Positions 15,885 through 63,979 of a stretch of 64,000 nucleotides of DNA are shown in pieces. Position 1 is the stretch's first letter, and each line of letters begins with the position of its first letter. Origin of the DNA: Natronobacterium haloterrestre (GTDB lineage: Archaea > Halobacteriota > Halobacteria > Halobacteriales > Natrialbaceae). The notes under the pieces were generated by a model that worked only from the letters and a program-made list of their open reading frames with translations, searched no databases and had not been told where the DNA came from. The DNA lies in assembly GCF_900112205.1 (NCBI RefSeq), contig NZ_FOKW01000001.1, forward strand, positions 124,001 to 188,000, in the 5' to 3' direction. A program made the translations under genes and the position numbers.

Positions 15885-15923
15885 CCCTTCGTAGCTTCAC
15901 CTTGTGACCAGAGGCACTTAAAG
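15885..15923 (+). promoter_or_regulatory. Promoter-like 39-bp motif, copy B
   Basis: Contains CCTTGTGACCAGAGG then CACTTAAAG, with no indel relative to the other five copies. It lies 30 nt upstream of the RlaP-like start codon but in the opposite orientation; a predicted plus-strand transcript would start near 15945. The block also shares upstream TCCCGCGAAAA with copy A. Confidence 0.7.
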
Positions 15924-16008
15924 AACCTCGAGGCGAGACCGGTTCCGTTCGTGCCCGGGTCGGATCGGGTAGTCGCACCGCTCGAGGATGGTACGTCGCG
16001 GAGAATCT

Positions 16009-16047
16009 CCCGTCGTATCTCCACCTTGTGACCAGAGGCACTTAAAC
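16009..16047 (+). promoter_or_regulatory. Promoter-like 39-bp motif, copy C
   Basis: CCCGTCGTATCTCC, CCTTGTGACCAGAGG and CACTTAAAC in the same register as the other copies; 124 nt downstream of copy B. Similarity to copy D extends about ten bases further upstream (GGAGAATCT). Sequence after the TATA-like element is unrelated to the other units. Confidence 0.7.
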
Positions 16048-16166
16048 GCCGGTCGGTCTATCACCGAACTCGTCTCGAGGTAAAGCGCGATCGGAGGACG
16101 TCTCCGACTCCGCTCGAGCGAGAGCGTTACAACTACAGGATTGACACCAAGTTCCTCGGAGAATCT

Positions 16167-16205
16167 CCCGTCGTATCTCCACCTTGTGACCAGAAGTACT
16201 TAAGC
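16167..16205 (+). promoter_or_regulatory. Promoter-like 39-bp motif, copy D
   Basis: CCCGTCGTATCTCC, CCTTGTGACCAGAAG and TACTTAAGC; 158 nt downstream of copy C. The most divergent TATA-like part of the set (TACTTAAG instead of CACTTAAA). Confidence 0.7.
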
Positions 16206-16312
16206 GACGATCGGATCGGAGGATCCCCCTCGAGACTGCGGTTGCGGTTCACGAATCCCAGGGGCGTTGCTGGAGAACTCGTACGAGTACAGCCCAAGTA
16301 AGCGGCCCGTCT

Positions 16313-16351
16313 CCCGTCGTATCTCTACCTTGTGACCAGAGACACTTAAAG
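16313..16351 (+). promoter_or_regulatory. Promoter-like 39-bp motif, copy E
   Basis: CCCGTCGTATCTCTACC, TTGTGACCAGAGA and CACTTAAAG; 146 nt downstream of copy D. The flanking upstream GGAGAA seen in C, D and F is replaced, which marks the left limit of the conserved block. Confidence 0.7.
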
Positions 16352-16451
16352 AGCGATCGCGGTGTGGTCCACGACCTTGCTCGAGCGAGGGCGATCGCAC
16401 GGACGAGAGCAGGAGAGTCGGGACTACCGGATCACAGGCTTCGGAGAAGTT

Positions 16452-16490
16452 CCCGTCGTATCTTCACCTTGTGACCAGAACCACTTAAAG
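16452..16490 (+). promoter_or_regulatory. Promoter-like 39-bp motif, copy F (proximal to mptA)
   Basis: CCCGTCGTATCTTCACC, TTGTGACCAGAAC and CACTTAAAG; 139 nt downstream of copy E. A transcript starting about 25 nt downstream, near 16510, would reach the mptA ATG at 16596 with a leader of about 85 nt, so this copy is the likely proximal mptA promoter. Confidence 0.7.
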
Positions 16491-16595
16491 GACGACGCCC
16501 GCTCGAGCGCCGTCCACGTTTTCTCTCCTCGAGCGGGGGGCGCGGAGAGTTCGTCTTCCGAAAGGTCTAATCGCACCCTTCCCTGAATGCGGCCA

Positions 16596-17534
16596 ATGAG
16601 TCATCAACTCCCCGACGTACAGGCGACGTCTCCCGACGTCACCGTCGGCCTGAGCCAGGTCGGCGTTACGGGCGTGGAGAAACTCGTCAAGATCGCCCGC
16701 GAGGACGACCGGCCCATCGTACTCACCGCCGAGTTCGAGGTCTTCGTCGACCTCCCGGCGTGGCGAAAGGGCGCCGACATGAGCCGCAACATGGAGGTCA
16801 TCGACGAGATCCTCGAGGACGCCACCCGCGAGGAAGCCTACCGCGTCGAGGAGGTCTGTGGCGAGGCCGCCGAACGACTGCTCGAGAAACACGACTACAC
16901 CTCCCGCGCCGAGGTGTCGATGGAGGCGGAGTTCATGCGCCGCGAACGGACGCCGGCCAGCGACCGCGAGACCCAACATACCGTCGACATCATCGCCTCC
17001 GCGACGGCGACCGACCAGGGCACGCGCGAGGAGATCGGCGCCGAAGTGACGGGGATGACGGTCTGTCCCTGCTCGCAGGGGATGTCAGCGGCGCGCGCGA
17101 AACAGACCCTCGAGGACCTGGGCGTCGACCAGGAGACGATCACCGAGTTCCTGAACGAGGTCCCACAGCCGGGCCACTCCCAGCGCGGGCACGCGACGCT
17201 GACCGTCGAGGCCGGCGGGGACCCCGACGTCGACCTGAACGACGTGATCGACATCGCGCGCGACTCGATGAGCGCGCGGATCTACAACCTCGCGAAACGG
17301 CCCGACGAGGACCACATGACCTACGAGGCCCACGCGGACGCCAAGTTCGTCGAGGACTGCGTGCGTTCGATGGCCGAGGGCGTGGTCGAGGAGTTCGATC
17401 ACCTCCCGGACGACGCGGTGATCACGATGAAACAGTCCAACGACGAGTCGATCCACCAGCACAACGCCCACGCCGAGCGCATCGTCGAGATGAAGCGACT
17501 GCGCTCGGAAGTAAGCGGGAACGTCGACGATTAG
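16596..17534 (+). CDS. mptA: GTP cyclohydrolase MptA (type IV)
   Basis: 312 residues from the ATG at 16596 ([15 protein letters not shown]). It converts GTP to 7,8-dihydroneopterin 2',3'-cyclic phosphate, the first step of pterin (folate or methanopterin type) synthesis in archaea. Family marks: [17 protein letters not shown] around the metal-ligand His128, the VCPCSQGMS motif at about 156-163, and the C-terminal [19 protein letters not shown] start at 16587 would add three residues. It stands at the end of the array of promoter-like repeats and converges with the TrmB-type regulator gene. Confidence 0.95.
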
Positions 17535-32829: not shown

Positions 32830-33032
32830 TACTGTCGACGGACGTCGATACGAAGCCGAACGTGAATTCGGCGTCGTCGCCACCGGTGACGGCTCCAGGG
32901 AAACGATCGGCTTCACGGAGTTCCGTTCGACAGTACGAGTCGCTCGAGTCGACCGCCTGACGGCGTGGTCGCTCGTCGGCCGACACCGAAACGCACATCC
33001 CAACCGGGGGACAACTGACGTGTGCCTTCTCT

Positions 33033-33116
33033 GCGAGGGTAGCCAAGCAGGCCAACGGCGGTGGGCTTAAGACCCGCTCCCGTAGGGGTCCGAGGGTTCA
33101 AATCCCTTCCCTCGCA
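33033..33116 (+). tRNA. tRNA-Leu (UAA)
   Basis: 84-nt class II tRNA. Acceptor GCGAGGG pairs with CCCTCGC, discriminator A at 33116; D arm TAGCCAAGCAGGCCAACGGC; anticodon stem GTGGG/CCCGC around the loop CTTAAGA with anticodon TAA at 33068-33070; extended variable arm (TCCCGTAGGGGTCC); T arm GAGGGTTCAAATCCCTT. No intron and no encoded CCA. Confidence 0.96.
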
Positions 33117-33330
33117 TGTCGCCGCGAACGACTCGTGAGCGGCGACTGCGCTCTCGGGATCTGAATCGGGGAAATCACGGCGCGAACGGAGAGCGACCGT
33201 CTTCCCGTGGTTCAAATGCCTTCCCTCGCATCGCTGTCGCGACCATCCGTGAGCGACAGGGACCCAACGACGGATTCGAATCAGTGAGCGAAACGAAGCC
33301 GACGACCGTGGTTCAAATCCCACCTTTCGT
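33095..33330 (+). repeat. Tandem decayed copies of the tRNA-Leu 3' end (att-like scars)
   Basis: The last 22 nt of tRNA-Leu (GGTTCAAATCCCTTCCCTCG plus CA, 33095-33116) recur at 33209-33230 with one mismatch, and in worn form at 33310-33330 (first 12 nt identical). The first two copies are each followed within 1-3 nt by a perfect hairpin: GTCGCCGC/GCGGCGAC (33118-33125 and 33139-33146) and CTGTCGC/GCGACAG (33234-33240 and 33253-33259). Spacings are 114 and 101 nt. No integrase is present. Confidence 0.7.
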
Positions 33331-33519
33331 CTTCGACGCGCCCGAACCTGAGACCAAGGGGTGTGGCTCCGACTCGAGGTGAAGAAGCCGCGGACACAAC
33401 CGCATCCTTCCGATCTTTGTCTCGTATACGAATTGGGCACCCCGTCTCTGACCGTCGGCGGTGCGAGCGACCGGGTGACGGTGTTCAACGACGACGTTAC
33501 GCCGGATGGAACCCCCCGA
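33331..33519. other. Remaining non-coding part downstream of tRNA-Leu
   Basis: About 190 nt after the last tRNA-like fragment and before the stop of the 144-aa membrane protein gene. Several frames are open because of composition but none looks like a protein. Confidence 0.4.
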
Positions 33520-62821: not shown

Positions 62822-63979
62822 CTATTGTCCGGGAGTACCGCCGTTTCCGCCGTCGTTCTGTCCGGGAGCAGAGCCGGACTGGTCGTCGCTGTCGTCTTCG
62901 CTGTCGTCTCCGCCGTCGTTCTGTCCGGGTGAAGAATCGGACCCGTCGCTGTCGCCTCCACCGCTCTGTCCGGGAGCAGAATCGGACCCGTCGCTGTCGC
63001 CTCCACCGCTCTGTCCGGGAGCAGAATCGGACTCGTCGCTGTCGCCTCCACCGCTCTGTCCGGGAGCAGAATCGGACTCGTCGCTGCCGTCTCCGCCGCC
63101 CTGTCCGGGAGCAGAATTGGACCCGTCGCTGTCGTCTTCGTCGCCGCTCTGTCCCGGCGGAGCAGCGGGCTGGCCGTTTTCGTTGCCATTATCGCCCTCG
63201 TTCTGACCGTCCTGATCTGTTCCTCCGGCTGCGTTCTGGCCCGGAGCATCGCCGGCATCGCCGGATTGACCCGGCGGCGAGCCGTCGTCCGTCCCGTTCT
63301 GTGGGCCGCCAGGATCCGCACCAGGCGTCGAGTTATCCGCCTGGCCCGGTGGCGTCCCGTTCCCTTCACCCGTGGTCCCGGACGGCCCCCCACCCGGTGC
63401 ATCGCCGGACGCTCCCAGACCGAGACCCCGTGCCGTCGCGTTGACGTCGGGGCCGGCGAGTTCCGAGGCGTTCTTCTCGAGGGTCTCGAGACGGTCACTT
63501 CCCAGGCCGGCCGCCTCGGCTCGTGGTTTCGTGCGCTCGATCTCCCGCTCGAGCGCCGCGATTTCCGCCGTCAGTTCCCCCATCCGGGCCTGATACTCGC
63601 CGGTCGAGAGGTTCTCGTCGCTCCCGTTTCGCAGTTCGGCCCGCTCGGCCTCGAGTTGGGCGAGACGATCCTCGAGGTCGTCGGTACGGTTGGCGATCAG
63701 TTCGGCTCGCTCCTCGTCGTCGGAGCGTTCGTACTCGGCGTCGAACATCTCGGCCTCGACCGACCGCTGGGTGTCGGCGGCGCTCGACTGCATGAACGTC
63801 GCAACTGTCGTATTGGCGGCCTGGTCGGTATCGGAATCCGTCGACGCCAGCGCCGCATCCGCCCCCGTTTCGGTCTCGACGTCGGCGAACGCCCCCGCGA
63901 CCGCACCGGCTGCAACCGGGGCGATCGAGAGGCCGACGACGGTGACCGCGAGAAGGACGACCGTCCGAGTCGGGATCAT
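62822..63979 (-). CDS. Secreted protein with coiled coil and PGQ-type tandem repeats
   Basis: 385 residues from the ATG at 63979. A signal peptide (about 1-28, RTVVLLAVTVVGLSIAPVAAGAVAG), an acidic part, a coiled coil (about 80-150, NRTDDLEDRLAQLEAERAELRNG...LTAEIAALEREIERTK), then a Gly/Pro/Asn/Asp-rich tail. The tail has four tandem 15-residue units of the type SAPGQSGGGDSDESD (DNA 62934-63113) plus looser PGQ repeats, and several N-glycosylation sequons. The C-terminus ends GGTPGQ with no membrane anchor. Similar N-terminal modules occur in haloarchaeal secreted proteins; function unknown. Confidence 0.75.
   Translation of the reverse strand: MIPTRTVVLLAVTVVGLSIAPVAAGAVAGAFADVETETGADAALASTDSDTDQAANTTVATFMQSSAADTQRSVEAEMFDAEYERSDDEERAELIANRTDDLEDRLAQLEAERAELRNGSDENLSTGEYQARMGELTAEIAALEREIERTKPRAEAAGLGSDRLETLEKNASELAGPDVNATARGLGLGASGDAPGGGPSGTTGEGNGTPPGQADNSTPGADPGGPQNGTDDGSPPGQSGDAGDAPGQNAAGGTDQDGQNEGDNGNENGQPAAPPGQSGDEDDSDGSNSAPGQGGGDGSDESDSAPGQSGGGDSDESDSAPGQSGGGDSDGSDSAPGQSGGGDSDGSDSSPGQNDGGDDSEDDSDDQSGSAPGQNDGGNGGTPGQ
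62934..63113 (-). repeat. Four tandem 45-bp repeats inside the secreted protein gene
   Basis: Four 45-bp units start at 62934, 62979, 63024 and 63069. The first two appear identical and the third differs by one base; the fourth has a few changes. The period is a multiple of three, so copy-number change would keep the reading frame and only alter the length of the protein tail. Confidence 0.85.

Follow-up and report, generated by a model that had tools for sequence, protein, structure and literature searches.

A conserved, apparently undescribed tRNA-tail echo element behind haloarchaeal tRNA genes

Many haloarchaeal tRNA genes are followed by a unit of about 120 nt, at times in tandem, that repeats the 3' end of the tRNA ahead of it. 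This tail-echo unit is characterized by a recurrent order of parts: the tail of the tRNA itself (T1), a first hairpin (hairpin A), an antisense T-arm (T'), a second hairpin (hairpin B) and a copy of the tail (T2). The architecture goes together with specificity for the local tail, covarying stems, a broad distribution, coevolution of T1 and T2 and, in prediction, competition between folds. We give about even weight to the reading that the unit works in cis, as an RNA element of the tRNA 3' trailer found class-wide in haloarchaea; from these properties we infer that it may be transcribed, serve as a switch, affect processing and be bound by a factor.

The window, a stretch of 64,000 nt from Natronobacterium haloterrestre (contig NZ_FOKW01000001.1, positions 124,001 to 188,000), holds two such units behind its tRNA-Leu(UAA) gene, which lies at 33032-33117 on the + strand (ARAGORN) and matches the Rfam tRNA family RF00005 at 33033-33116 with 50.3 bits. 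As the sequence-only reading had it, the tail of this tRNA recurs twice downstream: its last 23 nt (33095-33117) are repeated at 33209-33231 with one mismatch and, in worn form, at 33310-33332 with six (17/23). The two hairpins with similar loops that it placed behind the first two tails were also found as described, with arms 33118-33125/33139-33146 and loop GAACGACTCGTGA for the first, and arms 33234-33240/33253-33259 and loop GACCATCCGTGA for the second (both by reading). It overlooked the antisense T-arm and second hairpin that precede each tail copy (33156-33209 and 33272-33310), the limits of the copies, set by G53 of the T-loop and by the 3' end of the tRNA, and the same layout at other tRNA genes, each with its own tail. 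When the window was scanned for direct repeats (at least 16 nt, one mismatch, 60-220 nt apart), 18 pairs came out, among them 33095/33209 and 33205/33306, against 0, 1 and 0 in block-shuffled controls; a chance origin of the tail repeats is not expected. The locus is made up as follows:

33033-33116, + strand: tRNA-Leu(UAA) gene (ARAGORN, Rfam RF00005).
33096-33116, + strand: T1, the echoed tail, nt 53-73 of the tRNA; bounds taken over 109 units whose copies match at 20 or more of 22 positions.
33118-33146, + strand: hairpin A of unit 1, GTCGCCGC / GCGGCGAC with loop GAACGACTCGTGA; from reading, predicted folds and compensatory changes among Leu(UAA) orthologs.
33156-33167, + strand: T' of unit 1, antisense of the T-loop and 3' T-stem (GGGATCTGAATC); paired with T2 in the predicted fold, in line with the general own-T-stem specificity of T'.
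33168-33209, + strand: hairpin B of unit 1, a variant of the conserved core (..GACCGTCTTCCCGTG); match to covariance model R1 at 33147-33222, E 7.6e-8.
33210-33230, + strand: T2, the nearer tail copy, differing from T1 at one position of nt 53-73; from repeat comparison.
33234-33259, + strand: hairpin A of unit 2, CTGTCGC / GCGACAG; from reading and predicted folds.
33272-33283, + strand: T' of unit 2 (GGATTCGAATCA); from reading, at the position homologous to unit 1.
33284-33310, + strand: hairpin B of unit 2, worn, ending in CGACGACCGTG; from reading, with CCGTGGTTCAAAT common to unit 1.
33311-33331, + strand: T3, second tail copy, worn; 17/23 over 33310-33332.

Elsewhere in the window, five spaced copies resembling CCGTCGTATCTCCACCTTGTGACCAGAGGCACTTAAA, with a TATA-like end, lie at 15890-16490 upstream of an ORF (16587-17534) that we take to encode the GTP cyclohydrolase MptA; they are possibly tandem promoters or operators. 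A minisatellite-like tandem repeat with 45-nt steps, probably coding, is seen at 62842-63137.

The repeat behind tRNA-Leu(UAA) is one case of a wider pattern, since copies of a tRNA's own tail occur at nearly half of the loci scanned in the genus. With the 308-nt locus as query, the genome of the window (G000) and four further genomes of the genus gave, besides Leu tRNAs, matches to the downstream part, behind tRNA-Gly, -Thr, -Val and -Arg, in the same layout, the tail being in every case that of the tRNA at the locus. A copy of the tRNA's own last 22 nt with at least 17 matches lies downstream at 56/119 tRNA loci, a count that includes a few neighbouring genes for one tRNA (Asp), and at 47/119 the copy reaches at least 20/22. 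Foreign tails attain 20/22 in 18/3958 comparisons, and shuffled trailers never exceeded 16 in 595. The 119 loci are distinct tRNAs followed by 450 nt or more of sequence, drawn from 120 that were found via the Rfam tRNA family and scanned; they are a subset of each genome's tRNAs and exclude the aberrant cluster L067. The latter (G000:C17:14400-20000) groups at least 12 tRNA genes of aberrant sequence and likely lies on a virus or plasmid. As 63/119 tRNA loci of the genus, and 24/44 tRNA genes of Haloarcula rara, have no unit, it is dispensable at any one locus.

Over all loci fetched up to that step of the analysis, 155 distinct stretches end in an own-tail copy (at least 16 matches); they carry 36 tRNA labels and mostly span 88-160 nt. 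Agreement of the copies with the tail runs from T-loop G53 up to the discriminator, with identity falling to 0.16-0.47 upstream and 0.31-0.54 downstream of these bounds (109 units). Hairpin B is closed by T' paired to the first 14 nt of T2, the mean pairing there being 0.67-0.95 (103 units). T' is present in 125/136 units and matches its own tRNA's T-stem at 3.10 of 5 positions, against 1.99 for other tRNAs. We rejected the broader description of T' as an inverted copy of the whole tail: in both in-phase and local tests clear own-tRNA specificity is confined to the T-arm part, the acceptor part having at best weak tail specificity (own 11.86 against 11.29, mean rank 0.49). Several loci carry tandem units with near-identical neighbours (L023, L136, L204), and among Val(UAC) orthologs hairpins A and B are, by reading, reshuffled between tandem units. 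The sequence-only reading had offered as one option a tandem duplication of tRNA tail plus terminator; the tandem tail-hairpin form holds, and the terminator part finds no support in T-richness, which is similar after T1, inner copies, last copies and copy-less tRNAs (TTTT in 14-27%).

Some recurrent details accompany this anatomy. A GAAC..GTGA loop is common to hairpin A and the apical loop of hairpin B (L021, L022, L006 and others), which suggests a common hairpin type; whether this apical loop forms a kink-turn was considered, and no such claim is made. Several tRNA types, unrelated to one another, show a recurrent one-base insertion (GTTCACAATC or GTTCATAATC) in the T-loop part of the tail copy (L124, L125, L136, L171, L205, L023, L083).

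The structure of the unit is preserved by compensatory changes, as in structured RNAs. Of 51 units with the commonest hairpin B, 41 remained once close copies were removed and, with three left out, 38 were aligned; the stretches GTCGCAGC and GACCGTC are invariant among them. RNAalifold recovers 11 pairs, 7 with double changes. In the full structure including T':T2, double changes occur at 16/23 pairs and in 99 cells, against a mean of 35.9 on shuffling; helices 2 and 3 are paired in 100% and 99.4% of cells, and pairing, 89.5% in register, drops to 23-51% once the partners are slid. Hairpin B retains an invariant internal loop (GUCGCAG / ACCGU). The stem of hairpin A changes in step among Leu(UAA) orthologs; the search itself selected for the first four of its pairs. 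T' has a G wobble opposite U in T2 in 36/114 cells, and a C mismatch opposite A in 7/83 (Fisher p 9e-5); an excess of wobbles opposite U is expected if the tRNA-sense strand folds. A second comparison showed no wobble bias (9/84 against 11/104), and on balance the wobble data lean towards the tRNA-sense strand as the one that folds. Apart from tRNA, no Rfam family scores above its gathering score on the unit, the weak sub-threshold matches being atpB (E 0.095) and Tymo_tRNA-like (E 0.44).

The element extends through the haloarchaea. A pattern for the hairpin-B core matches in 186/293 genomes of the order, the reversed pattern being rare; a stricter exact core is found in 28/53 genomes of the order and in none of 241 other genomes of the phylum. 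A covariance model matches 54/59 haloarchaeal genomes at E 0.01 and recovers unit 1 of the window, which was outside its training set. It places 12 matches in the Haloferax gibbonsii genome and 39 in that of Haloarcula rara; of the latter, 34/39 follow a tRNA on the same strand at a distance of up to 600 nt (0.4% by chance) and touch 20/44 tRNA genes, the remaining five being about 1-11 kb from a tRNA. Five further matches were inspected in G000, and three of them proved to follow tRNA-His, -Ser and -Trp. A scan of named genomes listed at least 80 loci; many chance bacterial matches were set aside, and the analysis covered 31 haloarchaeal loci among the 80.

Among 94 distinct hairpin-B cores from 91 loci, 73 have a same-strand tRNA upstream within 450 nt, and for none does a tRNA lie downstream or on the opposite strand. 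Seven of the remaining 21 are followed by a T-loop sequence, their tRNA lying outside the locus or being unrecognised, and about 12 of the 94 are at non-tRNA places, a few of them at protein-gene ends. The non-tRNA cores include L121, L122, L123, L167, L212, L399, L401, L407 and L495, some of which stand at protein-gene 3' ends and echo the end of the gene. L121 and L192 follow the end of a gene that is presumably purH; L122 and L123 lie between two protein genes and carry an echo of the end of the first; L167, L212 and L407 share a recurring Halorubrum-type context; and L126 and L129 look like chance matches. At least 120 stretches of viral contigs match the core pattern, with a T-loop behind none of the 120 matches listed.

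The relationship between tail and copy was followed at tRNA-Leu(UAA), for which 145 genomes were searched and the best 30 loci taken, 28 of them readable, with up to 600 nt downstream. A tail copy lies about 80-110 nt downstream in 18/28 of these orthologs, and in all 18 T2 equals its own T1 at three sites that vary between species. Permutation gives a mean agreement of 5.8 and reaches 18 in 0/20,000 trials, related species not being independent. Several copy-less loci retain hairpin A or T' (L427, L431, L433, L434), and the hairpin A kept there makes the difference look like loss rather than gain. Within one genome, none of 606 unit pairs of different isotypes exceeds 0.5 of the maximum score; mean cross-isotype similarity is 0.14 within genomes and 0.138 between them, while orthologous units average 0.357. 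The two alike pairs found across isotypes are Val/Val and Ala/Ala, from different genomes and with tails that are identical or almost so. The proposition that, within the genus, conservation of T2 far exceeds that of its flanks was rejected, ungapped identity being 0.85 against 0.84 over all 42 pairs, some with differing tail frames. The claim of constraint rests instead on the T1-T2 agreement between species.

These data bear on how the repeats arose. The sequence-only reading had suggested successive attachment-site scars of elements that use the tRNA 3' end. Tails that form direct repeats starting in the T-loop speak for it, the T-loop being a place used by some integrases, and so does a real integrase element in another tRNA of G000. 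Yet the narrow unit length and covarying fold argue against remnants of unrelated islands, and T2 tracks T1 between species, where a dead scar should have retained its former tail. Comparison of the Leu(UAA) locus in relatives, which that reading had proposed for finding islands, turned up the short-spaced copy in the 18 of 28 readable orthologs (best 30 loci) and an island between the copies in none; no island or integrase lies between the repeats in the window either. The refuting check set by that reading thus goes against scars. The real element, in tRNA-Leu(UAG) of G000 (L010 1642-2805 and L391; G000:C24, C12), has a tyrosine recombinase: a 388-aa Phage_integrase protein (PF00589, E 8.2e-20) that starts just behind the tRNA. 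Its attR core is longer than the tail copy, having its start in the anticodon region, and at its far end the ancestral unit follows the core on the host side of attR, outside the element. Proven integration in a related tRNA thus leaves the unit outside and has other boundaries. Archaeal tRNA genes can be attachment sites of tyrosine-recombinase elements (accessible text of PMC8371274), and the unit resembles these in directly repeating a 3' part of the tRNA; it differs in its fixed short spacing, its RNA-like fold, its copy that tracks the tRNA in evolution, and in having no integrase or island. On all these counts we regard scars as very improbable.

A small mobile or selfish palindromic DNA element of about 100 nt would insert at gene 3' ends, chiefly in tRNA T-loops, duplicate a 21-nt target and perhaps be recognised as a single-stranded hairpin. 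The sharp bounds of the copies, a hairpin B sequence common to different isotypes, and the few cores with a gene-end echo at protein genes (L122, L123) would fit such an element, and covariation is compatible with single-stranded DNA hairpins too. We nevertheless consider it unlikely, as T' matches each tRNA's own T-stem, T2 tracks T1 between species, the copy-less Leu(UAA) loci suggest loss, and recent copies between different tRNAs of one genome, or near-identical copies at different sites of one genome as in MITEs, were not found among the 606 pairs. The accessible text of PMC3119063 describes small mobile repeats and MITEs of Haloquadratum that are likewise short and gene-free in a haloarchaeon, some with terminal inverted repeats; those are dispersed and mutually alike, while the tail-echo units keep to the 3' ends of tRNAs, bear the tail found there and give no sign of having spread recently. 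Neutral duplication and deletion of a tail-hairpin unit by recombination between direct repeats, conversion in polyploid cells keeping T2 like T1, would account for the near-identical tandem neighbours, the reshuffled hairpins of Val(UAC) and the concerted change of T1 and T2, but leaves the covarying stems, the invariant internal loop and class-wide retention unexplained, and this too seems to us a doubtful account. Still less probable is a trailer that is the precursor of a stand-alone small RNA, a sponge or guide co-transcribed with tRNAs: the conserved internal loop and structure, and the presence behind many isotypes, are in keeping with it, but the repetition of the local tail up to the discriminator is left unexplained.

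If the unit acts in cis as RNA, hairpin A, T', hairpin B and T2 would be transcribed downstream of the tRNA. As an antisense of the T-loop and 3' T-stem, T' would be able to pair either with T1, the tRNA's own tail, or with T2; being held identical to T1, T2 could take T' off the tRNA, and would also offer the tRNA 5' strand an alternative 3' acceptor strand. Two folds would follow: one with a normal tRNA and T':T2 closed as hairpin B, and another with T1 captured by T' and the tRNA 5' end paired to T2. Such strand exchange might tune precursor folding or 3'-end trimming, with the invariant internal loop of hairpin B as the putative site of action for a protein or other factor. Predicted T-arm pairing over 81 loci with a first unit (the window locus was also folded) is 0.61 for the tRNA alone, 0.165 in the unit without T2, 0.113 with shuffled T2 and 0.51 with T2; with T2 present, the tRNA 5' acceptor strand is predicted to pair with T2 at 0.83, against 0.11 with T1 (81 loci). 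These values are for equilibrium at 37 C in standard salt, not molar KCl, and as such competition arises almost automatically from any T-T'-T layout, they are not independent evidence of function. In cells, the tRNA folds first. Hence, with predictions made at equilibrium and driven largely by the layout, strand exchange is put forward as a proposal. tRNase Z may cut the precursor at T1; the unit may be untranscribed or cut off at once by tRNase Z; and gene conversion could explain the identity of T2 without an RNA function. Only tentatively do we envisage a class-wide strand-exchange device, in which T' unfolds the tRNA, a matched spare tail, one exact tail per tRNA, rescues it or replaces its acceptor strand, the exchange is read out through the conserved internal loop, and precursor folding controls tRNA supply.

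The nearest known system appears to be the E. coli tyrT operon, whose 178-bp repeats contain the tRNA 3' end (rtT RNA). As there, the haloarchaeal repeats stand behind a tRNA gene and each contains the last part of that tRNA's 3' end; no match to rtT in Rfam appeared. tyrT/rtT is known from one operon of enterobacteria, whereas the haloarchaeal units occur behind many isotypes, measure about 120 nt and have an antisense T-arm and a covarying hairpin. With the structured RNA families of Rfam the unit shares a covarying structure with an invariant internal loop, and it matches none of them above gathering score. The literature outside subscription papers, including the accessible text of PMC3119063, PMC8371274, PMC7714728 and PMC2841640, yielded no description of the unit, although a printed account may exist; the haloarchaeal tRNA-tail echo element is apparently a conserved structure undescribed so far.

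If the reading as a cis element is right, tail repeats behind haloarchaeal tRNA genes should not be taken as provirus attachment sites, and nearly half of the tRNA genes in a large archaeal class would share an overlooked cis element that repeats their own tail. Archaeal regulation at the level of tRNA, or quality control of tRNA precursors, would then become directly testable in Haloferax.
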